50,556 bases of DNA from Oscillospiraceae bacterium (GTDB taxonomy: Bacteria > Bacillota > Clostridia > Oscillospirales > Oscillospiraceae): assembly GCA_017887695.1 (NCBI GenBank), contig JAGHHM010000001.1, positions 1 to 50,556 of the forward strand, read 5' to 3'. Position numbers and translations under genes: made by a program. Under the pieces are notes generated by a model. The model saw nothing but the letters and a program-made list of their open reading frames with translations. It was not told where the DNA came from and searched no databases. Positions 34,499 to 48,701 of this stretch are shown here, piece by piece. Each line of letters begins with the position of its first letter. Position 1 is the stretch's first letter.

Positions 34499-34575
34499 GC
34501 GCCGTTAGCTCAGCTGGATAGAGCGTCTGGCTACGGACCAGAAGGCCGGGGGTTCGAATCCCTCACGGCGTGCCA
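34499..34575 (+). tRNA. tRNA-Arg (anticodon ACG)
   Basis: 77-nt cloverleaf: acceptor GCGCCGT/ACGGCGT, D arm GCTC-AGCTGGATA-GAGC, anticodon arm TCTGG-CTACGGA-CCAGA, T arm GGGGG-TTCGAAT-CCCTC, encoded CCA. Confidence 0.95.
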
Positions 34576-34660: not shown

Positions 34661-35806
34661 CTAACGCATCAGGCACTGGGTCAGCTTATCTGCCAGCCCT
34701 TTCTTGCGGGTACTGTCCAGATGGCCGTAGATATTGGCTGTGGTCTGGATATCGCTGTGGCCCATCCACTCCTGTACGTCTTTGAGACTGCATCCCTGAT
34801 TCAGCAGTAAGCTTGCGCAGCTGTGGCGCAACTCATGAAAGCGGATAGGTGGTAGATTATTTTTGCGTAGCACTTTGAGAAAATGGTGAGTTACATAGTC
34901 CGGTTCAAAGGGAGTGCCGTCCGGCCACTTGAAAATATAATCATTTTCTTGGTAGTCCCTGCCCAACAAGCGTCGGTTTTCCTCCTCCGCTGTCTTTGCG
35001 GCCAGGAAAATGCTACGGGCATCCGGCGTCAGCGGGAAACTGCGGCGGCTGCTTTGCGTCTTGGTCTTGTCCTTCTCGATACGTGTCATCATTTTACAGA
35101 CAGTATGGCGGATCAACAGGATATCATTTTTAAAGTCTACGCTGTCCCATTTCAATCCAAGCACTTCACTTCGACGCAGACCATACAGTGCAGTAATCTT
35201 GACTAATGGCAGTAGGGGGTCACCCTCCATCACGTCAAACAGATGCTGAATCTGATCAGCGTTGTAAAATGCAGCCTCAAAGCGCTCATGGCGAGGCAGT
35301 TCCACATAGTCACAGGGATTGCTTGTCAAAAGGTTCTCCTTCACCGCCTCTGCCAGCGACTGGCGGATGATATTCCGATGATGGCGCATGGTCTTTGCTG
35401 ATAATCCACCCTTTCCGTCCAGACGGCCGCTCCGGGACTTTTCATCAAAATATGCCTGTAGTGCCTTAACGGTACACCCTTGCAGCGTAAGGCCGTTTGC
35501 GTCAAAGTATGGAAGGACTTGTTTTTCCGCTGTATTGAGATAGCCCAGGTAGGTTACCGCATCCACACGCCGCTCCACGCAGGAAAGCCAGTGCCGTATA
35601 CAGTCAGCCACCAGCATGTCTGGTTGAGGAAGGGATTCTTCCTCCCTCTCCTGCACCAGCTGCTCCCGAAGCATCTGTTCTGCCTTGCGTTTATTTCCCT
35701 TTTCCGGTAAGCCGGTTGAAATCCATCGTTGTTTCCTTTTTCCATTTTCCGTGCTGTTAAGCACCATGTAAAATTTCCCGCTTTTTACTTGCAGACTTCC
35801 TGTCAT
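34661..35806 (-). CDS. int: Tyrosine-type site-specific integrase
   Basis: ITALYGLRRSEVLGLKWDSVDF, FHELRHSCASLLLNQGCSLKDVQEWMGHSDIQTTANIYGHLD (R...HxxR...Y); N-terminal AP2-like DNA-binding region; adjacent to the tRNA 3' end. Confidence 0.95.
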   Translation of the reverse strand: MTGSLQVKSGKFYMVLNSTENGKRKQRWISTGLPEKGNKRKAEQMLREQLVQEREEESLPQPDMLVADCIRHWLSCVERRVDAVTYLGYLNTAEKQVLPYFDANGLTLQGCTVKALQAYFDEKSRSGRLDGKGGLSAKTMRHHRNIIRQSLAEAVKENLLTSNPCDYVELPRHERFEAAFYNADQIQHLFDVMEGDPLLPLVKITALYGLRRSEVLGLKWDSVDFKNDILLIRHTVCKMMTRIEKDKTKTQSSRRSFPLTPDARSIFLAAKTAEEENRRLLGRDYQENDYIFKWPDGTPFEPDYVTHHFLKVLRKNNLPPIRFHELRHSCASLLLNQGCSLKDVQEWMGHSDIQTTANIYGHLDSTRKKGLADKLTQCLMR

Positions 35807-37436: not shown

Positions 37437-40400
37437 ATGAAGAAGAGAGATAGAATCACAAGTTTCCTGCTCGTATTTATTCTGACTATTCAACTTATTC
37501 CGGCTCAAGCGCTTGCTTTTTCTACCAATTTTGCCACCTCATTCACTGACTATGGCCCATATGAATTTAGTATTCCCAGTGAAGAAGAAAGCCAGTATCA
37601 AAATTCTACAGATCGCTATTATGACCTCGTTTATACACCTGAAGGTGATCTGAGTACTGATTTCCCAGAAACTGATTCTGGAGATAACACATATAATTCT
37701 GAGCTAAAAGATCCAACATCTCTAGTTCCAACGGAAGCAGATCATCATTTCATAGAAATAGTAAAGGTATATTCCAGTTTTCTGGAGCTGACCCCTTCCG
37801 ATCAAGAATTTTTATGCAGCTACACTGGCATAGCATCTGAAATGCTTGCTACGTTATCAGTGTCAGGTGTATCCATCTCTGACGCATTAGGTTACGCATC
37901 ACTTTCGTTATCTATTGAACTTCCTATAGAAGAAATTATTGCCGTATCACCAACACTGGATGAGATTAATTCTATAGCAATTCAAGCTAAACTCTATAAT
38001 TCTTATTTGGATTCAGAAATTTCGGAGCCAACTGTAGATTTAGAGTTGAAAAAATTCCTGCTTCAGGGCTATTCTTTTGAACAGATTAATAATGCATTTA
38101 CGATTAATCAAAAATACAATATTGCTATCAGTGACTTATTGGAAGGTATCTTGCAGGGCGAATCTATGCCTGTGGGCAACAACATACTGACGGAAAATGA
38201 ATTATCAGAACTGTCTGACTTAGCTCAGGAAGCTGGGATTTCTGAATCTGCAATTATAAATTACACGGATCAGAATCAGGAGCAATATTCTGACATAAAA
38301 TCCACCTTGCAGTCTATCAATACATCTCCCGTTGCTGCTGGTTATGAAAATGAAGCCAGCGACAGCTGGTCTTCACAATCTGACAGCTCAATTGGCTCTG
38401 CAAGTCCTAATGCCACTGATGATGTCGTCGTTACCCCAATGGAAACGCAGTACTTAGGCGCCCCCTATACCTATAGCGCTAGCGACAACGAAAAAGTCTC
38501 TCTAAATACCGGCGCTCTGATTGAAGAAGCGATTGATTACATTCTTCCCGGCATAAATGGTTTGGATCTCGTTATTGGAAGACGATATAATTCTCAGGAA
38601 GCAAATAACGTTACACCAGTCTCCATGTATGGCTCTCTCCCAGTTTACCAATACTATGTCAACTATGGGGCTGAGGCATCTTACTATGTTCCCGGCATTG
38701 CTTCTGGGGCTTGGGATTATTATGATGAGCATTATGTTGCCGGCCCATTTGCCACATTAATGGATGCGCAAAATTTCTGCGCAACACTGCCTTCAGGGCG
38801 GCGTGTAATACCCAATTTTGAAGATGGAGCAGATCTGATATTTGATTACTATGCAAATATCGTCCCTGTTCTCATCGGATACAACTATATTACAACCTCT
38901 GGTACCCAGCCAAACAATTACTTAAAGAGCATGTATGGCCTTGGCAATGGATGGAGCTTCATGTTCTCTTCTATTGAGATGACTGGCAGCAGTCCGCTGC
39001 TACATCTCTCTGACGGCAGAACCTACGAAATTGCCTTCGGATCAACTATTTCTAATTTGAAGGACTATCTTCTGTCTGACCTCCGAATCGTACAAGAACC
39101 TAATGCTTATTTTAATGGACAAGAATATTCTTTATATACCCTTTACTATGCCGATGGTACTCGAGAGTATTTTTCCGGCTTTGGAAAACTGCTTGCTAAA
39201 GCGGACCGCTACAACAATACAATTAAATTCAGCCACAGCATACTTAACGGTTTTCCTTATATCACAATAACTGATACATTGAATAGGGTTACTACAATCT
39301 CTGGTTCTCCCATTCTTAATGGTCATATCATGACAGTAACCCTACCAGATTCCAGAACGATGACTTACACAGTTAATTATCTGGGGAACAGTTGTGATCT
39401 GCTGGGTATTCATACAAACACCAGCAACCAAAATACATACTATTCATACTCTGTCAACACTGCAGGCTTTGATGCAAACAGCAAAGGTATTTCTGCAGCA
39501 TCCTACCAATTTGCTAATTTGACGGCTATCCAACATCCTACCGGAGCACTAACCCAATTCAACTATTCTTCCAAAGTACGTAATCTCGGAGTCAGTGGCG
39601 CAACTCAAGTATTTGTCCTATCTAACCGTTTCGACCGTACAATTACCGATAGTTCTCCGAAAAATGTCACTAATTATTCGTACTTCTCTGATTGTTCCGG
39701 GTACCCCAACTATACGGATGGAAACAACTTACCCACAATATTCACATACAGCACAACGGTAATAAATCCTAGCACGGGTCTTGCCGAAGGAACCACATTT
39801 AACTACAAACACCGTCCTATTGCCATTTCCTACAGTAATATATCATCCAATGCACTTCTACGGCAAACCGTCTATAATTATGATATAGCTACATGGCTGC
39901 CAACATCTTGTTACGATAATTGGTATGGCACAAACCCACAACAGCCACCGTATCAAATTATTACCAGCATGACATACGATCAGTATGGAAATGTGACCGC
40001 TGAATGGTCGCCTTTGGCGGAAGGCTCTACGATTGACACAGAGTACAAAACAACTTATACATACGGTGGTCCATATCAGCTTCTATTATCAAAAACGTAT
40101 AAAACAAATCTCAACACTACCGTAGAAGAGAGGAATACCCTCACTGAAGATGGTCGATCTATTGCGCGTACAGAAGTATATGAAAACAATGTGCTTAAAA
40201 GCCGCACAGACTTTACCTATGATAGTTCTGGTAATGTAACAAGCCAGAGAAATTATAAGGACGGTTTTACCGACTTTTATTTGACTGAGTACACCTACGA
40301 GAGCGGGTATCTATCCTCGGAGTCACGTTATGATGTACTTGATCCTGATGGCGCTGCCGCGCTTCCCACTCCTGGACAGGCAGCTGGAGTAATTCGCCGA

Positions 40401-43400
40401 ACATATACTTATGACCGTATGGGTAGATTGTTCCAGTCAACTGATGCCAACGGCGGAACTACTACATATTACTACGATAACCTGGATAATGTCTCTTTAA
40501 TCCTTAATCCTGACAACACATCCATATCCTATACTCGTGATTACTTCGCAAACACTGTAACTGTCCGTGATGAAGATGGCGCGAATATCAAGTACACGTA
40601 TACACCGTTAGGTCTGGAATATCAGACCATCGATGTGCAGAGTGGAGCTATATTGTCCCAGAACAACTATGACAGTGCATCCCGCCTGATTCAAAAATTT
40701 GACTACACCTATGGATCATCAGCACTGTATTCCTACGATGTTTGGGGAAGGTGCCTTAGCGAAAGTATTGGTACATTAAACGGGGAAATCCTATCTCAAA
40801 AACTGTACAACTACACAGATGCACCCGCAGACCAACTTTACCAGATAAAAACCGAGACAATCCTCGGTGATACTATGGCACCTTCTATCATCACTAACTA
40901 TTACACCAACAAAATTGGCCATCCTGTGAAGACAGGGAAAATGCTCAATGGTACTGAGTATTTTGAAAACTACACCACCGATTATAGGGGTAATGTAGTT
41001 ATCACTCAATCTGCACAGGCAGCAGCTCAAGGCTTAGGTTTTAGTGAAAAGAATGAATATGACTATGCAGGCCGCGTAATAAAAACATACAATGCGGACA
41101 ACCAGAGCACCTCTAATACCTACAATGCTTTGGGGCAGCTTATCCAATCAACAGATTACTCAGGGACCCCAACCATCTATTCTTATGATGCCCTGGGCCG
41201 GATGCTGACACAGACACTCAAGATAGATGCCTCCAATAGTGCGGTAACTAAATACTACTATGATGCAGCAGGAAACATTATCCGTCAACTGACACCTAGC
41301 CAAAGTCTGGGATCTGGTGCAATATGGAATAGGATCGATTACACTTACGATTCGCGAAACAGGCTAGAAACAGCGTCCCTCTACGATGGTAATTCTATTG
41401 CCACCGCTTCTCGCTATACTTATAGTGGCACCGGCAATCCTTTGACCATGACCACAGGGCTCTCCTCCCCCACTGCCTCCGGTGGCAGCACCACAACCTA
41501 TACCTATGATCATTTTGGAAATGTCCTATCGGAAACCGATGCCACTGGTGCAGCCGAAACATATAGCTATAGCATAACTGGATGCCTAATCAGCAAAACC
41601 AATCGAAATGGAATAACAGAACGTTATTCGTACGATGCATTAGGACGCCTAATCGGTTATAACACAGGTGTCGAAATCTTTGCAAACATCTATTCCAAAA
41701 CTGGCGCTCTGATTGGCGAGCTTTCAGGAAAAATCCTCTCCACCACTATTCCCGTTCTGCAGCGTACCGAGTACAGCTATGATTCATGGGGACGTTTGGC
41801 GCAAGTTGTTTATAGTGATTTTGGAGCAGAAGGAACTACTAATGTCACAGCAGCCACTCCTCAAATCTCCTACACCACACAGTATACCCACGATCTGGCC
41901 GGAAATCGTACAAACATGACTGTACAGATGGGAGATGTGCAGGTCCAGAACGTTACCTACACTTACGACACACTCAATCGGCTCTCCACTGTAACCGAGG
42001 ACGGTGCACTCAAAGCTACCTATACATACGATACCAACGGCAACCGGGCCAGCTTGACCTACGCTAACGGTGTTTCTGAGACATATAGCTACAACCTGGC
42101 CAATTGGGTCACCGGCCTCACCAACAAATTAGGGAGCACTACGCTTTCCTCTTATAGTTACACTTATTTCGCCAGTGGAAACCAGAAAACCAAGACTGAT
42201 CATACCGGTAAAACCACCACTTACACCTATGATGGGCTTGGCCGCCTGACTGCTGAAAGTAGCGGAGAGCTCTCCGTATCCTATGTATATGATGCAAACA
42301 GTAACCGTACACAAATGTCGGTAAGTGGTCCTGAGAGCAGCATTATTGCGTACTCCTATGATGCAGCTAACCGGTTGGTCAGCGAAACAACGACCCGTGA
42401 CGATGCCATTGTAAAGTCCATTTCTTATTCCTATGACGACAACGGCAATCTACTGTCCAAGGCAACAACTGGAGCAGACAATATTGTCAACACGGATACT
42501 TTCCAGTATAATACGATTGACCAGTTGATTTCCCACACGTCGGACAGTGTTACCACCTCCTACACCTATAATGCGCAGGGCATCCGAACCAGCAAAACTA
42601 CCGGCGCTCTTACCAGTTACTATGTTCTGGACGAGGAAAATGTGGTAGGCGAGGTCCAAAATGGAGCTGTTACCGCCAGCTATCTGCGGGGCGTCAACCC
42701 GATCCTCATGGATATTGCCGGTTCTGAAAGCTACTATCTCTACAACGCTCATAGCGATGTGGTGCAGCTTACCAGCGCCGCAGGTGCTGTCAGCCGTTCC
42801 TACGACTACGATGCCTTCGGCAATGAACTGGATCCCGACACCGCAGATATCAACCCCTTCCGCTACTGCGGCGAATACCGAGATACTGAATCCGGCGCCT
42901 ACTATCTCCGGGCCAGGTATTATGATCCCAGCATTGGACGCTTTACCCAGGAAGATACGTATTGGAACATCGCCAATATGATCTACGGAACCAGCCCTCA
43001 AAAAATCAACCAGCAAAAGGATTATCTTGGCCTTACAAATTATACCTATGCACCCGAGATATCCGCTATCCTACAAAGTGGTAATCTTTATGTCTATGCT
43101 ATCAATAACCCAGTGTTATACCACGACACCTCCGGTAATATAGTTCAATTTGTTATTTTAGGTACCGCCATATCAGCAGAGTCTATTATTGCCGCCGCAG
43201 GTGCAGCAGCACTGAGTGGTATATTAATTTTTTCCGACTTTCGCGACAAACTAGCCAATCTACTTAAGTATGCATATGATTCTACCGAAGATGCCATAGA
43301 AGACATACTTGCCGCATTTTCTAATATTGCTGCTGCATCACCCACGCCCGACCCTAACGGCAACGATAACGACAGATCATCAGATACCAAAAGCATAAAA

Positions 43401-43598
43401 AAAATCAAAAGTAACAAAGAAGCTAATAAAATCGCCAAACAATTTGGCTATGATAATGCTGAGCAGCTAAAGCAAGATTATGTAAACAGAAGTGGATCTC
43501 ACTTTAACATGTTTTATAATACAAAAACTGGAGAAGTTATCTTGCAGTCAATAGGAAATAGCAAATTAAATATTCCTACAGGTCTGTTTTTATGGTAG
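37437..43598 (+). CDS. Secreted Rhs/YD-repeat polymorphic toxin protein
   Basis: 2053 aa; signal peptide MKKRDRITSFLLVFILTIQLIPAQALAFS; many YD repeats (YTYDxxGRL...); Rhs core (FRYCGEYRDTESGAYYLRARYYDPSIGRFTQEDTYWNIANM...NLYVYAINNPVLYHDTSG); short variable C-terminal domain after the core. Confidence 0.95.
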   Translation: MKKRDRITSFLLVFILTIQLIPAQALAFSTNFATSFTDYGPYEFSIPSEEESQYQNSTDRYYDLVYTPEGDLSTDFPETDSGDNTYNSELKDPTSLVPTEADHHFIEIVKVYSSFLELTPSDQEFLCSYTGIASEMLATLSVSGVSISDALGYASLSLSIELPIEEIIAVSPTLDEINSIAIQAKLYNSYLDSEISEPTVDLELKKFLLQGYSFEQINNAFTINQKYNIAISDLLEGILQGESMPVGNNILTENELSELSDLAQEAGISESAIINYTDQNQEQYSDIKSTLQSINTSPVAAGYENEASDSWSSQSDSSIGSASPNATDDVVVTPMETQYLGAPYTYSASDNEKVSLNTGALIEEAIDYILPGINGLDLVIGRRYNSQEANNVTPVSMYGSLPVYQYYVNYGAEASYYVPGIASGAWDYYDEHYVAGPFATLMDAQNFCATLPSGRRVIPNFEDGADLIFDYYANIVPVLIGYNYITTSGTQPNNYLKSMYGLGNGWSFMFSSIEMTGSSPLLHLSDGRTYEIAFGSTISNLKDYLLSDLRIVQEPNAYFNGQEYSLYTLYYADGTREYFSGFGKLLAKADRYNNTIKFSHSILNGFPYITITDTLNRVTTISGSPILNGHIMTVTLPDSRTMTYTVNYLGNSCDLLGIHTNTSNQNTYYSYSVNTAGFDANSKGISAASYQFANLTAIQHPTGALTQFNYSSKVRNLGVSGATQVFVLSNRFDRTITDSSPKNVTNYSYFSDCSGYPNYTDGNNLPTIFTYSTTVINPSTGLAEGTTFNYKHRPIAISYSNISSNALLRQTVYNYDIATWLPTSCYDNWYGTNPQQPPYQIITSMTYDQYGNVTAEWSPLAEGSTIDTEYKTTYTYGGPYQLLLSKTYKTNLNTTVEERNTLTEDGRSIARTEVYENNVLKSRTDFTYDSSGNVTSQRNYKDGFTDFYLTEYTYESGYLSSESRYDVLDPDGAAALPTPGQAAGVIRRTYTYDRMGRLFQSTDANGGTTTYYYDNLDNVSLILNPDNTSISYTRDYFANTVTVRDEDGANIKYTYTPLGLEYQTIDVQSGAILSQNNYDSASRLIQKFDYTYGSSALYSYDVWGRCLSESIGTLNGEILSQKLYNYTDAPADQLYQIKTETILGDTMAPSIITNYYTNKIGHPVKTGKMLNGTEYFENYTTDYRGNVVITQSAQAAAQGLGFSEKNEYDYAGRVIKTYNADNQSTSNTYNALGQLIQSTDYSGTPTIYSYDALGRMLTQTLKIDASNSAVTKYYYDAAGNIIRQLTPSQSLGSGAIWNRIDYTYDSRNRLETASLYDGNSIATASRYTYSGTGNPLTMTTGLSSPTASGGSTTTYTYDHFGNVLSETDATGAAETYSYSITGCLISKTNRNGITERYSYDALGRLIGYNTGVEIFANIYSKTGALIGELSGKILSTTIPVLQRTEYSYDSWGRLAQVVYSDFGAEGTTNVTAATPQISYTTQYTHDLAGNRTNMTVQMGDVQVQNVTYTYDTLNRLSTVTEDGALKATYTYDTNGNRASLTYANGVSETYSYNLANWVTGLTNKLGSTTLSSYSYTYFASGNQKTKTDHTGKTTTYTYDGLGRLTAESSGELSVSYVYDANSNRTQMSVSGPESSIIAYSYDAANRLVSETTTRDDAIVKSISYSYDDNGNLLSKATTGADNIVNTDTFQYNTIDQLISHTSDSVTTSYTYNAQGIRTSKTTGALTSYYVLDEENVVGEVQNGAVTASYLRGVNPILMDIAGSESYYLYNAHSDVVQLTSAAGAVSRSYDYDAFGNELDPDTADINPFRYCGEYRDTESGAYYLRARYYDPSIGRFTQEDTYWNIANMIYGTSPQKINQQKDYLGLTNYTYAPEISAILQSGNLYVYAINNPVLYHDTSGNIVQFVILGTAISAESIIAAAGAAALSGILIFSDFRDKLANLLKYAYDSTEDAIEDILAAFSNIAAASPTPDPNGNDNDRSSDTKSIKKIKSNKEANKIAKQFGYDNAEQLKQDYVNRSGSHFNMFYNTKTGEVILQSIGNSKLNIPTGLFLW

Positions 43599-44008
43599 GT
43601 GTGGAAATGGAAATAATAAAAACTTGTTTTACCATCAGTGCCCCTGATCTTTCTTTTAGTGATATTACGAATTCTCTTGGAATTTCTCCCACAAATATTC
43701 GAAAGAAAAAAGACTGGCCACAACCATCCATCATTGCTGGTATTGCAGAAGATGCATGGACATTGTCAATGGAAAACGAACAGTTCAGTTGTGTCTCGCA
43801 ATCTATACAAAAACTTTGTCAGCTTCTGTTACCAAAGGCACCTATCGTACGCCGTCTATGTGACCGCTATCACGCCACAACACATATCGAAATTATTATT
43901 CATACCGAGGAAAATTCTTTACCCGAAATGGTTTTGCCTGCAGAACAAATTTCTTTTTTGTCTGAACTTCATGCAGAACTTGGATTTGATATCTATTTTG
44001 ACCTTTAG
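43592..44008 (+). CDS. DUF4279-like protein, putative immunity protein for the Rhs C-terminal toxin
   Basis: MEIIKTCFTISAPDLSFSDITNSLGISPTNIRKKKDWPQPS...EDAWTLS; starts inside the rhs stop region (ATGGTAG). Confidence 0.7.
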   Translation: MVGVEMEIIKTCFTISAPDLSFSDITNSLGISPTNIRKKKDWPQPSIIAGIAEDAWTLSMENEQFSCVSQSIQKLCQLLLPKAPIVRRLCDRYHATTHIEIIIHTEENSLPEMVLPAEQISFLSELHAELGFDIYFDL

Positions 44009-44079
44009 ATTATTTTTTATGATGTGGTAAAGAAGGGCTATCCACTGATCTTGAGACATCTGGCCTATTGTCCAATGGT

Positions 44080-44135
44080 GTTGTCGGCAACAATCCCTAT
44101 CTCGATCTGCTCCCAGGCTGGGATGATCGATTTTC
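44080..44135 (+). pseudogene. Remnant of the 3' end of an immunity gene like those at 44738 and 46226
   Basis: Translates GVVGNNPYLDLLPGWDD, matching ...TDGVVGTNPYLNPPPGLG; followed by the same intergenic hairpin repeat. Confidence 0.6.
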
Positions 44136-44150
44136 TCGTTCTCTGCACAG

Positions 44151-44180
44151 CCGCCGCCGGTTTATCCCGGCGGCGGTTTT
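44151..44180 (+). repeat. Hairpin repeat copy 1
   Basis: CCGCCGCCGG-TTTATC-CCGGCGGCGG-TTTTA; identical hairpins at 45641 and 47135. Confidence 0.9.
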
Positions 44181-44298
44181 ACCTAACTTTAATTTTAGGT
44201 AACATCCAGCTAGGAAAATATTGCACTCTAAAAATCCATTCGGTAAAATGGAGTAAATTGTCTCACCGTGCGCTCAGTAGTAATCACTTTGCGACTTG

Positions 44299-44727
44299 TT
44301 GTCCAAAGCAGATAATATTGCAGATGCTGCTGAGGCGATTGTCGACGGCAGAAGCGCTATTGTCATGAGTTACACGGAGCTCAGAAAAACGGTGAAGAGC
44401 CTTGGGATCAAGGGCATGGAGGTCCATCACCTGATTGAGAAGCGTTTTGCTAAAACTCTTGGTATTGATCCCGATGATATCCCAAGCATTCTCTTGCCTA
44501 AGGGAGATCACCAGACCATTACCAAAGCATTTCGTAAATTAATTGGGTATAGCAACGATATAAATAGCGAAGTAACTACTAAATATGCATCTGTAGAGAA
44601 AATTTGGAGCGTAATTAAGGAGGTGTACAATAAAAACGGAATGGAACAATATATACCCATTATTGAAGAATTTCTGCAGATTAATTCTTCCAAATTTGGA
44701 AATATTAGAATTTGGAAAATAGATTAG
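44299..44727 (+). CDS. Orphan Rhs-type toxin C-terminal domain with HNH/His-Me-finger-like motif (no Rhs core attached)
   Basis: SKADNIADAAEAIVDGRSAIVMSYTELRKTVKSLGIKGMEVHHLIEKRFAKTLGIDPDDIPSILLPKGDHQTITKAFRKLIG...; VHHLIEKRF motif plus GDHQ. No credible RBS or own start (TTG). Confidence 0.6.
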   Translation: MSKADNIADAAEAIVDGRSAIVMSYTELRKTVKSLGIKGMEVHHLIEKRFAKTLGIDPDDIPSILLPKGDHQTITKAFRKLIGYSNDINSEVTTKYASVEKIWSVIKEVYNKNGMEQYIPIIEEFLQINSSKFGNIRIWKID

Positions 44728-44737
44728 AGGTGTAACT

Positions 44738-45616
44738 ATGCGGCGAGCAACCTCCGTAATCGCACTCTCTATGGACGAAGAGAAGTGTCATACGCTATAC
44801 AACACATATAAGCCATATTTTGTACAGGGTATTCATGCCAACAACTACGGGCAAGTTGTTCTTCCCCTCAAGCCAGATTCCTCTATATTAAATGAAGCTA
44901 TTGAAGATGCTCGTAAACTTGATTGTGGCGGAAATTATATGTTGTGCAGTCGAGCTTACTACACAAAAAAAGAACTGGAGGCTGTCCCCTTTTTTCAGTT
45001 AGACGTTGGCTTTCCTCTGGAATTGGAAGGGACAGATCCCTCAGACTATGGGACAAAATACACCGGGGGCTGCCCCGTCTGCGGACTTGGCAAGCAACTG
45101 ACCAGCGACGTGTTCGTAGATCGAAAGTTTATTCGTAAATATAGAATTGGTCAATTGCAGCCCGACTATTTTGTCTCCGAGGAGATCCGCCAGCTCATCG
45201 AAGAAGCCGGCCTCACCGGCGTCTCTTTTGAACGAGAGGTCAGGGACTACAAGGGCCGGGAGCTGCCCCATCGCTTCTATGTTATGAACATCCACCACAT
45301 CCTGCCGCCCCTCAGCCCTTCCACCTGGCTTGAGGATACAAAAAAGCGCCAAATGGTCTCCTCCTGCGGCCACGGCACCATCTACCTACGCTCAGACCTC
45401 CAGTACGAGCGTGAAAAGCTGGAGGGAGCCATGGATTTTAACCTGACTGCAGAAATCCTCAACAATGATCAGATCCCCGCTCTCGTGGTCAGTGCGAAAA
45501 CCAGGAAGGTGTTTCGTGAGCACAAGGTGGGGTGGGCCCGCTATACCCCTGTGCTGCTGACCGACGGCGTTATCGGCACCAATCCCTATCTTGATTCGCC
45601 CCCGGGCCTGGGTTGA
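44738..45616 (+). CDS. Putative immunity protein (double-CxxC type), cassette 1
   Basis: 292 aa; GGCPVCGLGKQ and SSCGHGT motifs; directly downstream of the orphan toxin; paralogue of 46226..47110. Confidence 0.6.
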   Translation: MRRATSVIALSMDEEKCHTLYNTYKPYFVQGIHANNYGQVVLPLKPDSSILNEAIEDARKLDCGGNYMLCSRAYYTKKELEAVPFFQLDVGFPLELEGTDPSDYGTKYTGGCPVCGLGKQLTSDVFVDRKFIRKYRIGQLQPDYFVSEEIRQLIEEAGLTGVSFEREVRDYKGRELPHRFYVMNIHHILPPLSPSTWLEDTKKRQMVSSCGHGTIYLRSDLQYEREKLEGAMDFNLTAEILNNDQIPALVVSAKTRKVFREHKVGWARYTPVLLTDGVIGTNPYLDSPPGLG

Positions 45617-45640
45617 TCCTTTTCCGCGTTCTCTGCACAA

Positions 45641-45670
45641 CCGCCGCCGGTTTATCCCGGCGGCGGTTTT
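45641..45670 (+). repeat. Hairpin repeat copy 2
   Basis: CCGCCGCCGG-TTTATC-CCGGCGGCGG-TTTTA after immunity gene 1. Confidence 0.9.
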
Positions 45671-45785
45671 ACCTAACTTTATTTTTAGGCAACATCCAGC
45701 TAGGAAAATATTGCACTCTAAAAATCCATTCGGTAAAATGGAGTTAATTGTCTCACCGTGCGCTCAGTAGTAATCACTTTGCGAC

Positions 45786-46211
45786 TTGTCCAAAGCAGAT
45801 AATATTGCAGAATGCTGCTGAGGCGATTGTCGATGGCAGAAGCGCCATTGTCATGAGTTACATGGAGCTCAGAAAAACGGTGAAGAGCCTTGGGATCAAG
45901 GGCATGGAGGTCCATCACCTGATTGAGAAGCGTTTTGCTAAAACTCTTGGTATTGATCCCGATGATATCCCAAGCATTCTCTTGCTAAGGGAGATCACCA
46001 GGCCATTACCAAAGCATTTCGGGATAAAATCGGATATATCGGTTAAAAGTACAAATTCTTAACAACATCCACAGCTAGTGCACAAGATATCTGGAATGTT
46101 TTGACAGAAGTTTACAAAGAGCAGGGAATGGAAAAATACATTCCGATACTGCAGAAATTTTTGCAAAATAATTCCAAAAATTACGGAATAACAATCTGGA
46201 AAATTAAGTAG
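45786..46211 (+). pseudogene. Degenerate orphan toxin C-terminal domain, cassette 2
   Basis: Same 5' half as 44299..44727, but with a 1-nt insertion (GCAGAATGCTGC vs GCAGATGCTGC), a 1-nt deletion (CTCTTGCTAAGG vs CTCTTGCCTAAGG) and an in-frame TAA after GYIG; the remainder still reads KYKFLTTSTASAQDIWNVLTEVYKEQGMEKYIPILQKFLQNNSKNYGITIWKIK. Confidence 0.75.
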
Positions 46212-46225
46212 AAAGCAGGGCCCTT

Positions 46226-47110
46226 ATGCTGTGTGCAACATGTATCGTAACCGTTCCACGCTCCTTTACTAAAGAAGAACGGAAACGTCTCTACAACAAG
46301 TTTGAACCTTATTTTGTAAAAGAATTTTCAAGATATGTCACATGGGAGCATGTAATTTGTTTTCCATTTCCACCTGATTCAGATATTCTGCATACAGCAA
46401 TACAAGAGATCTACAATAGGGAGCTGTACTATCATCTCATAAGCAAAACCTATTATACAAAAAAAGAGCTGGAGACTGTTTCTTTTTTCCAGATGGGTGT
46501 AAGGAATCCTTTGGAGCTAGAAGGCGTCGATGCCTCACGCTATAATACTCAATACACAGGAGGCTGCCCAAACTGCGGAAGAGGCAAACATCTGATCGGT
46601 AACTTGTTTATTGACAGAAAGTTTATTCGAAAGTACAGGATTGGAATGCTGGAACCCAACTACTTTGTCTCCGAGGATATCCGCCAGCTCATCGAGGAAG
46701 CCGGCCTCACCGGCGTATCTTTCGAGCAGGAGGTCAGGGACTATAAGGGGCGTGAGCTGCCCCAGCCCTTTTATGTCATGAATATTCACCACACCCTGCC
46801 GCCCCTCAGTCCTTCCACCTGGCTTGAGGATACGAAAAAGCGCCAAATGGTCTCCTCCTGCGGCCACGGCACCATCTATCTGCGCTCAGACCTCCAGTAC
46901 GAGCGTGAAAAGCTGGAGGGAGCCATGGATTTTAACCTGACAGCAGAAATCCTCAACAATGACCAGATCCCCGCTCTCGTGGTCAGTGCGAAAACCAGGA
47001 AGGTGTTTCGTGAGCACAAGGTGGGGTGGGCCCTCTATACCCCTGTATTGCTGACCGACGGCGTTGTCGGCACCAATCCCTATCTTAACCCGCCCCCGGG
47101 CCTGGGTTGA
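46226..47110 (+). CDS. Putative immunity protein (double-CxxC type), cassette 2
   Basis: 294 aa; C-terminal ~170 aa nearly identical to 44738..45616, N-terminal ~115 aa diverged. Confidence 0.6.
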   Translation: MLCATCIVTVPRSFTKEERKRLYNKFEPYFVKEFSRYVTWEHVICFPFPPDSDILHTAIQEIYNRELYYHLISKTYYTKKELETVSFFQMGVRNPLELEGVDASRYNTQYTGGCPNCGRGKHLIGNLFIDRKFIRKYRIGMLEPNYFVSEDIRQLIEEAGLTGVSFEQEVRDYKGRELPQPFYVMNIHHTLPPLSPSTWLEDTKKRQMVSSCGHGTIYLRSDLQYEREKLEGAMDFNLTAEILNNDQIPALVVSAKTRKVFREHKVGWALYTPVLLTDGVVGTNPYLNPPPGLG

Positions 47111-47318: not shown

Positions 47319-47519
47319 TTAAATTTCGAACTTACTAATATTTAGAGATATATGTAGCATAATCTCCTGCTTCAAATCCAAATCCACCACCCCATCAACC
47401 ACACTGTACCGATTGATTAATGGCATATACATACAAAGGATCTCCTCTATTGCCTTTTTATCACCGACGATCGCACGGATTAGCAACTCTCGGAACTCAC
47501 TCGCATTCACTATTTTCAC
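47319..47519 (-). CDS. Small helix-turn-helix-type protein of conjugative-transposon class (Tn916 Orf8-like)
   Basis: MKIVNASEFRELLIRAIVGDKKAIEEILCMYMPLINRYSVVDGVVDLDLKQEIMLHISLNISKFEI; overlaps the end of the sigma-like gene. Confidence 0.6.
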   Translation of the reverse strand: MKIVNASEFRELLIRAIVGDKKAIEEILCMYMPLINRYSVVDGVVDLDLKQEIMLHISLNISKFEI

Positions 47520-47913
47520 CTCTTTCCGATAAAAGTTTGCGAAGCTTTTTGACGGCCAAAGATCGCTGATTATAAATGTGCTGAACTGTACAGCCCATTA
47601 ATTCTGCAATCTCCTCTGGATACATCTCCTCCACAAATAAATATATAAGCACTTTTTGACGTGCCATGGGAAGCTGTCTGAAAGCTTCTGCAAGCCTGCT
47701 CTCCTCGAAGGTGAATTCATGCTCTTCATAAGGCGTTGGTCCAGCAATTAACGGGATTTCTATTTCAGATACTATATCCAACGAAATTGTTTTTGGTTCT
47801 CTGCTGAGTTTCCTTAAGTAATTTTGCCGGACATGCTTCATAGTTACCTCCAGGAATCGAGTAAACCGACCTCGCAACTCATCCCGTGGTTCAAATTTAA
47901 TTTCATAATCCAT
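47497..47913 (-). CDS. Sigma-70 region 4-like regulator (Tn916 Orf7-like)
   Basis: AFRQLPMARQKVLIYLFVEEMYPEEIAELMGCTVQHIYNQRSLAVKKLRKLL; start at MDYEIKF better spaced from AGGAGG than the ATG at 47919. Confidence 0.8.
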   Translation of the reverse strand: MDYEIKFEPRDELRGRFTRFLEVTMKHVRQNYLRKLSREPKTISLDIVSEIEIPLIAGPTPYEEHEFTFEESRLAEAFRQLPMARQKVLIYLFVEEMYPEEIAELMGCTVQHIYNQRSLAVKKLRKLLSERGENSECE

Positions 47914-47925
47914 TTTCATGCCTCC

Positions 47926-48087
47926 TGGTCATGCCATCCCAGCAGCCTGGGTGGCATGCCAAGATGGCATGCGTATTGATAATCATTTCGGTTCAGGTGA
48001 GTTAACGCATAAATGCGATGTGCATTGGACTCACCTCCTTTCAATAAGTACAAAAAAAAGCTGTGCCGCAAAGCTTTGCGGCACAGC
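47926..48087 (-). promoter_or_regulatory. Leader region of the sigma-like gene: terminator, leader peptide and alternative hairpins
   Basis: Minus strand order: perfect 28-nt palindrome GCTGTGCCGCAAAGCTTTGCGGCACAGC (48087-48060) plus T8; AAGGAGGTGA RBS; ATGCACATCGCATTTATGCGTTAA (48025-48002); then CATGCCATC / GGCATGCCACCCAG / CTGGGATGGCATGACC segments ending next to the gene's AGGAGG. Confidence 0.6.
48002..48025 (-). CDS. Short leader peptide MHIAFMR
   Basis: ATG CAC ATC GCA TTT ATG CGT TAA with AAGGAGGTGA five nucleotides upstream. Confidence 0.45.
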   Translation of the reverse strand: MHIAFMR

Positions 48088-48344: not shown

Positions 48345-48701
48345 TCATTCAAAAAGATCCAAATTGTTCAGCATTTGCGAAATATCGTCTTCCTGGAGAT
48401 TGTCTGTATCTACAGTATGAGAGCCGGTAACCGAACTGCTATTTCGGCTCAGTTGTTCAGATACTATTTCTCGAATCGTCTGTTCTAACCTCTTGCGACT
48501 CAGAGAGGATTGCTCCTCAACTTTTATGCGAAGGGACTCATCAAGAATCCTAGGATTTCTCTGAATAAACTCGTTGAGCGCCTTCACTACTAAAGCACTT
48601 TTTTTATTGCCAAGTCGCTCTAATAATTCTCCTGCACAAATGCCAGGTTCTGTATCTGCTGAAAATTGGAGGGAAAATCGATAAACATTCCCCTTCTTCA
48701 T
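48345..48701 (-). CDS. ParR/StbB-like partition adaptor protein (putative)
   Basis: MKKGNVYRFSLQFSADTEPGICAGELLERLGNKKSALVVKALNEFIQRNP (RHH-like), immediately downstream of a ParM-like gene. Confidence 0.6.
   Translation of the reverse strand: MKKGNVYRFSLQFSADTEPGICAGELLERLGNKKSALVVKALNEFIQRNPRILDESLRIKVEEQSSLSRKRLEQTIREIVSEQLSRNSSSVTGSHTVDTDNLQEDDISQMLNNLDLFE

Follow-up and report, generated by a model that had tools for sequence, protein, structure and literature searches.

A conserved leader predicted to hide the ribosome-binding site of an Orf7-type sigma gene in mobile elements of Clostridia

The stretch of DNA analyzed here, the window, comprises 50,556 nucleotides of contig JAGHHM010000001.1 from an Oscillospiraceae bacterium. 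It carries an integrative element, of which the following genes concern us:

34661..35806, minus strand: tyrosine integrase, adjoining a tRNA gene (34499-34572) at the element's edge
47319..47519, minus strand: HTH_16 gene (66 amino acids), the Tn916 Orf8-type partner, overlapping the sigma gene
47497..47913, minus strand: sigma-70-like gene (region 4) of the Tn916 Orf7 type, likely start 47913
48345..48701, minus strand: gene for a 118-amino acid protein, lying after a ParM-like gene; upstream neighbor of the leader

With its overlapping sigma region-4 and HTH_16 genes and its integrase, the element contains a Tn916-type regulatory module, and orf7 and orf8 of Tn916 form the same gene pair in the same order (sigma, HTH, then integrase). 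Compared with the Tn916 copy in pCF10 (L101), the proteins were 26% (sigma/Orf7), 30% (HTH/Orf8), and 27% (integrase) identical; by sequence, the sigma and HTH genes are distant relatives of orf7 and orf8. The sigma gene is more likely to start at ATG 47913 than at ATG 47919, as the latter lies only 1 nt from the AGGAGG and the former is spaced from it by 7 nt; the start at 47913 also agrees with the MDHKVK start of a relative (L061). ParM-like and DUF3854 genes lie upstream of the leader. About 11 kb of cargo separates the sigma/HTH pair from the integrase in the window. Positions 37437-47110 hold a gene for a 2053-amino acid RHS-repeat protein followed by repeated fragments, two of which (44296-44727 and 45748-46062) have a common HNH-like stretch and another two of which (44738-45616 and 46226-47110) are paralogous. 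This array resembles a polymorphic-toxin cassette array carried as cargo.

The stretch before the sigma gene is its 5′ leader, and the sigma gene heads the regulatory operon of the element. Read 5′ to 3′ on the minus strand, the leader consists of a terminator hairpin (T1), an extended Shine-Dalgarno sequence (SD), a mini-ORF, and the segments S1, S2, S3, and S4, the last of which contains the sigma SD:

48060..48087, minus strand: T1, an intrinsic terminator hairpin, perfect palindrome GCTGTGCCGCAAAG/CTTTGCGGCACAGC
48052..48059, minus strand: U8 tract of T1 (T8 in DNA)
48031..48041, minus strand: extended SD of the mini-ORF, AAAGGAGGTGA, an 11-nt match to the 16S rRNA 3′ end
48002..48025, minus strand: mini-ORF MHIAFMR plus stop (ATG CAC ATC GCA TTT ATG CGT TAA)
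48005..48011, minus strand: S0 (TATGCGT), complementary to the 5′ edge of S1 (ACGCATG)
47963..47972, minus strand: S1, GCATGCCATC, the putative anti-sequestor strand
47947..47961, minus strand: S2, TGGCATGCCACCCAG, partner of S1 and, in the window, also of S3
47954..47961, minus strand: core of S2, TGGCATGC
47930..47942, minus strand: S3, CTGGGATGGCATG, able to pair with S1, S2, or S4
47917..47926, minus strand: S4, the sigma SD AGGAGG plus CATG, predicted to be held by S3 in relatives and by S1 in the window fold
47921..47926, minus strand: sigma SD, AGGAGG

A preliminary description of this DNA had noted the palindrome with its T8, the strong ribosome-binding site, the MHIAFMR peptide, S1 to S3, and the AGGAGG, and had placed the leader stop (48002) 29 nt from S1; all of these sequence statements hold. 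A search of the window for the promoter of this transcript identified none. Rfam covariance models gave no match over the leader, either in the window or in its relatives, and in a close-DNA search within the same bacterial family, the sole match was to the T1 palindrome and not to the rest of the leader.

Minus-strand RNA folding, which the preliminary description had suggested as a check, gave more structure than expected by chance, with z = -7.0 for the 198-nt leader (0 of 200 shuffles folded as well) and z = -6.2 for the segment from S1 to the start codon alone. The predicted fold of the window is a single long hairpin in which S1:S4 encloses S2:S3 and buries the sigma SD, for which the unpaired probability is 0.003 and the opening cost is 12.6 kcal/mol (SD to start) or 19.2 kcal/mol (wider span). 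In most other leaders, the default predicted fold is S1:S2 plus S3:S4, and the SD opening cost across 10 leaders ranged from 5.8 to 12.6 kcal/mol. Modeling thus places the sigma SD in a strong predicted hairpin in the default fold, a sequestration to which both the prediction and the covariation described below point. An exact S1/S2/S3 triple (8 bp + 7 bp) arose in 19 of 20,000 shuffles of the segment, and elsewhere in the 50-kb window there are four places with similar triples; the decisive evidence is therefore conservation in relatives and not the window alone.

With a single window protein as the query, few relatives were retrieved, and scans of genome contigs and viral contigs returned nothing. 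Relatives were found once alignments of 6 and 17 rows were used: the six-sequence alignment retrieved 24 loci from GTDB genomes, and others came from searches of Clostridia genomes. No close relatives were found in the plasmid and phage collections. Homologous sigma genes (33-54% identical) of mobile elements from across the Clostridia are preceded by leaders with this arrangement, which was seen upstream of most of the related genes, including those of Blautia, Subdoligranulum, Ruminococcus, and Lachnospiraceae. Group A, with T1, mini-ORF, and S1-S4, comprises the window, L061, L062, L036, L063, L076, L077, L078, L087, L011, L097, L038, and L045, together with L037 and L044, which have no recognizable mini-ORF. 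A hairpin at the T1 position, usually with a U-run, is also present in the group A relatives. Group B (L057, L064, L065, and L072) has no mini-ORF and carries a U-run after the S1:S2 hairpin; this combination, T2, is found in L037, L057, L064, L065, and L072 and is absent from the window. Related genes without this leader were found in L053, L056, and L080-L084. Six further loci (L008-L010, L058, L007, and L039) have a similar layout with another S1 (GGGGCATATG or GGGGTATGTG) and were excluded from the statistics. A covariance model built from 11 leaders recovered L063 (96 bits), L087 (106 bits), and L097 (39.8 bits), none of which was in its training set. Between the window and L061, the region from S1 to the SD is about 95% identical, though the sigma proteins are only 54% identical. 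The model also partially matched L098:1501-1609, where a strong SD and a mini-ORF reading MFL plus stop precede an unrelated gene and S1-S3 are absent; the mini-ORF part may therefore also occur outside these elements.

Covariation, another check that had been suggested, was computed on 16 to 18 leaders. S1:S2 was paired in 93-94% of cells, with changes on both sides at five pairs and a score reached by 0 of 500 shuffles; for S3:S4, the SD sequestor, 90% were paired and three pairs had changed on both sides (again 0/500). S1:S3 was paired in 95-98% of cells and was mostly invariant or changed on one side (3/500 shuffles, scored by percent paired); because this pairing varies little, its covariation is weak. 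When the partner was slid by 1-3 columns as a control, pairing fell to 19-52%. RNAalifold picked S1:S2 and S3:S4 unaided, and L063, which lies outside the covariance model, retains S1:S3 despite a changed loop. As shuffles do not remove sequence relatedness, we give more weight to the slid controls and to the independently found members. At the level of sequence, the comparison shows that, in many relatives whose bases differ, S1 has a choice between S2 and S3, and S3 a choice between S1 and the SD, so that mutually exclusive pairings are conserved by covariation, clearly for S1:S2 and S3:S4 and weakly for S1:S3. That a conserved SD-sequestering leader exists is, as we judge it, very likely. 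This leader is real, conserved, and outside Rfam, and we found no published description of it in the literature searched.

The most unexpected part of the leader is the mini-ORF. Thirteen leaders have kept its strong, extended SD, its AUG, and its early stop, and we take this conservation as sequence support for its being real. The mini-ORF SD is complementary to the 16S rRNA 3′ end over 11-14 nt, compared with 6-9 nt for the sigma SD (10 leaders, G-U allowed). Twelve of the 13 mini-ORFs have 1-3 codons (MF plus stop in six, MD plus stop in two, MFI plus stop in one, and a bare start-stop in three), and the seven-codon mini-ORF of the window is the longest and the sole exception. Under a composition null, which takes no account of relatedness, the tail probability for this shortness is about 3e-8. 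The spacing from SD to start is constant, and the distance from the AUG to S1 is 45-58 nt. Several other reading frames were considered and rejected. The preliminary description had pointed to a second ORF (ATG 47986) translated through S1-S3, which fails as a general leader: it is not conserved, the S1-S3 spacing being of mixed phase among the leaders and the stops differing in frame. We also rejected a conservation of peptide rather than RNA, which had been considered on account of similar peptides (ACxPxC, MPSWHV) across S1-S3, because these lie in different frames and both the S1-S3 phase and the stops are mixed. Long ORFs running through T1 (window 48158 and L062) are likewise not conserved. 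In L036, L076, L077, L078, and L087, the interval between an XRE repressor gene and T1 holds a conserved ORF of six codons, M[FIL]R[RG][YCN][CS] plus stop, which has an SD of its own and lies about 75-100 nt before T1; it may encode a first leader peptide controlling T1.

SD-type 5′ mRNA stabilizers exist in Bacillus, and the extended-SD mini-ORF together with T1 resembles them. The leader could accordingly be read as an mRNA-stability device, in which the downstream transcript is protected by the T1 5′ hairpin together with a ribosome sitting at the extended SD, and the other hairpins are secondary; the SD complementarity far beyond need, the ORF of 1-3 codons, and the hairpin about 13-16 nt upstream in most leaders would fit. 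Such a device leaves the S1/S2/S3/S4 covariation and the S0:S1 complementarity unexplained, and we consider it highly unlikely.

The S0:S1 complementarity involves a segment just 3′ of the mini-ORF AUG (about +11 to +22 from it), which in L011, L062, L036, L077, L078, L061, and L063 is complementary to the 5′ edge of S1 and remains so with differing sequences across lineages. In a swap test over six lineages, 8 of 720 permutations were as good, which is suggestive support for the complementarity. Footprints of Escherichia coli ribosomes at start codons end at +16 to +18 (PMC12121999), so S0 would lie at least partly within the footprint of a ribosome on the mini-ORF. For RNA extending only to the end of S1, S0:S1 was predicted with a probability of 0.60-0.99 in six leaders, which fell to 0.02 or less once a ribosome occupied the mini-ORF. 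Because S0:S1 is predicted on newly made S1 and lost with the ribosome, we favor a kinetic effect, in which the mini-ORF ribosome may act via S0 rather than by covering S1 itself. S0:S1 is not predicted to form in the window; here and in L061, S0 is tied into a hairpin around the mini-ORF.

From these features, we propose that the leader is a default-off translational switch on the master sigma gene of the element, with gating probably by ribosome occupancy of the mini-ORF. In the closed state, S1:S2 and S3:S4 (or, in the window, S1:S4 enclosing S2:S3) would shut the SD, and no sigma factor would be made; in the open state, S1:S3 would form and free the SD. A ribosome parked on the mini-ORF would cover S0 and leave S1 free for S2, closing the switch. 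With the mini-ORF empty, S0 would hold the 5′ edge of S1 and delay S1:S2, S3 would take the rest of S1, and the SD would open. In relatives with T2, whether transcription terminates would depend on the same choice of S1. Once made, the sigma factor would act with its HTH partner to switch on the excision and transfer genes, as proposed for Orf7 of Tn916, and the element would in effect sense how host protein synthesis is faring. The sign may instead be the reverse, with a stalled ribosome opening the SD. We hold this S0/S1-S4 mechanism tentatively, as falling a little short of probable, because masking of the mini-ORF never freed the SD of the window and S0 is tied up in the window and L061.

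At equilibrium, a ribosome mask on the mini-ORF left the window SD closed (opening cost 12.6 versus 12.2-12.4 kcal/mol), and it altered the topology as proposed only in L077 and L011. The preliminary description had read the leader as attenuation by readthrough plus occlusion of the ribosome-binding site: the occlusion (in the predicted fold) and the conserved hairpins stand, and the opening of the SD was not recovered. Nor can the mini-ORF ribosome decide readthrough of T1, which lies upstream of the mini-ORF; readthrough there would need upstream control or processive antitermination. An SD that stays buried with or without a ribosome on the mini-ORF is what would be expected of a constitutive leader, whose hairpins merely keep sigma translation low, whose mini-ORF is nonregulatory, and whose SD opens by chance or by translational coupling. 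A ribosome on S1-S2 cut the opening cost in the window from 19.2 to about 6-9 kcal/mol, and one on the 47986 ORF would lower it too; that ORF, however, lacks conservation. Constitutive occlusion also sits poorly with the fact that S1 keeps both of its partners, down to loop bases that S1:S3 alone requires, and with the preservation of the mini-ORF, its extended SD, and the distance of about 50 nt to S1. We judge it fairly unlikely.

The gated switch that we prefer has likenesses among known systems. Like erm-type attenuators, the leader has mutually exclusive segments, the last of which holds the SD; it differs from them in having no drug-stalling peptide, an ORF that is too short, and S1 as the shared strand (1:2 and 1:3) instead of 2:3. 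Because a halted leader-ORF ribosome did not free the SD in the equilibrium masking, we did not file it as an erm-type attenuator; it may work like a ribosome-linked translational switch. The toiL upstream ORF of E. coli topAI (PMC12121999) likewise combines a short upstream ORF with a hairpin over the downstream ribosome-binding site, and start-codon ribosomes matter for toiL as they would here. However, toiL lies inside the repressive hairpin, which a stalled ribosome opens, whereas the mini-ORF of the window family is located outside the sequestor and often consists of AUG-stop. The tet(M) orf12 attenuator of Tn916 also has a leader ORF and terminators in a Tn916-type element, but it exerts transcriptional control of a resistance gene and differs from the window leader in gene, position, and sequence.

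In Tn916 itself, Porf7 drives transcription of the transfer genes (PMC11658703), Orf7 has been described as up-regulating xis and int (PMC7288454), and the element is partly relieved by translation-inhibiting drugs (PMC9154091). As in the window, a terminator-like hairpin with a T-run lies upstream in the orf7 leader, and the orf7 SD is hidden, here inside a 13-bp hairpin, CTCACTTCCTTTC:GAAAGGGGGTGAG (S3:S4), with S1:S2, S2:S3, and S1:S4 as alternatives. The four mutually exclusive segments around the SD lie at L101:2416-2500, with the ORF MQQIPLSHWD over S1. A Staphylococcus plasmid relative has a 16-bp version of the hairpin with changed bases, and upstream of the sigma gene in L106, the ORF over the first segment is MQQIPLSCRGLV. 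This arrangement is erm-like, and we found no description of it. In contrast to the window leader, the Tn916 leader has the classical wiring (1:2/3:4 versus 2:3) and no extended-SD mini-ORF, and the two have no sequence homology (covariance model 14.8 bits). Hiding of the SD of this sigma gene may be general, with differing wiring, as the Tn916 orf7 SD is hidden too.

These comparisons bear on whether the window leader is a classical antibiotic-sensing translational attenuator, in which a drug-stalled leader ribosome opens the sigma SD in the manner of erm or toiL and ribosome-targeting drugs induce transfer. Tetracycline stalls ribosomes at the toiL start codon (PMC12121999), translation inhibitors induce Tn916 (PMC9154091), and masking the ORF over S1 of the Tn916 orf7 leader reduced the predicted cost of opening the SD from 15.9 to 9.4 kcal/mol. 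For the window family, we regard this as unlikely, and more so than constitutive occlusion, given that a mini-ORF ribosome is not predicted to open the SD and that AUG-stop ORFs contain no codon for sequence-specific stalling.

The Rfam pemK RNA (RF02913) matches Tn916 in pCF10 at L101:3433-3533 (55 bits; gathering threshold 34.8). It also lies between orf8 and xis in L007, L038, L039, L044, L045, L053, L063, L064, L065, L076, L078, L087, L100, L102, L103, L104, and L109; the window itself gave no match. The Tn916 match begins exactly at nt 283 after the orf8 stop, the site of the canT(S3) mutation (ATA to TGC), which abolishes Tn916 processive antitermination in a study that does not mention pemK (PMC11658703). 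Because the match starts at this position, canT probably has the pemK RNA motif as its core, in which case the Rfam pemK family would gain a function.

A wider reading of the gated switch, which we consider possible and rather doubtful, is that in this family of mobile elements, a mini-ORF that is AUG-stop (or has 1-2 codons) and carries an excessively strong SD serves as a codon-independent sensor of ribosome occupancy. Through S0/S1/S2/S3, it would gate translation of the master sigma gene (and, in some elements, its transcription), so that the element gauges how occupied or blocked the ribosomes of its host are and decides whether to leave. In Tn916 and related elements, which are important vehicles of resistance genes among Firmicutes, Orf7-type sigma genes head the excision and transfer operon. 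An RNA switch on such a gene, for which we found no describing paper, would be a control point for horizontal transfer, and if the mini-ORF gates it, transfer would respond to ribosome availability or to drugs acting on initiation. The leader offers a testable bacterial case of regulatory AUG-stop reading frames.
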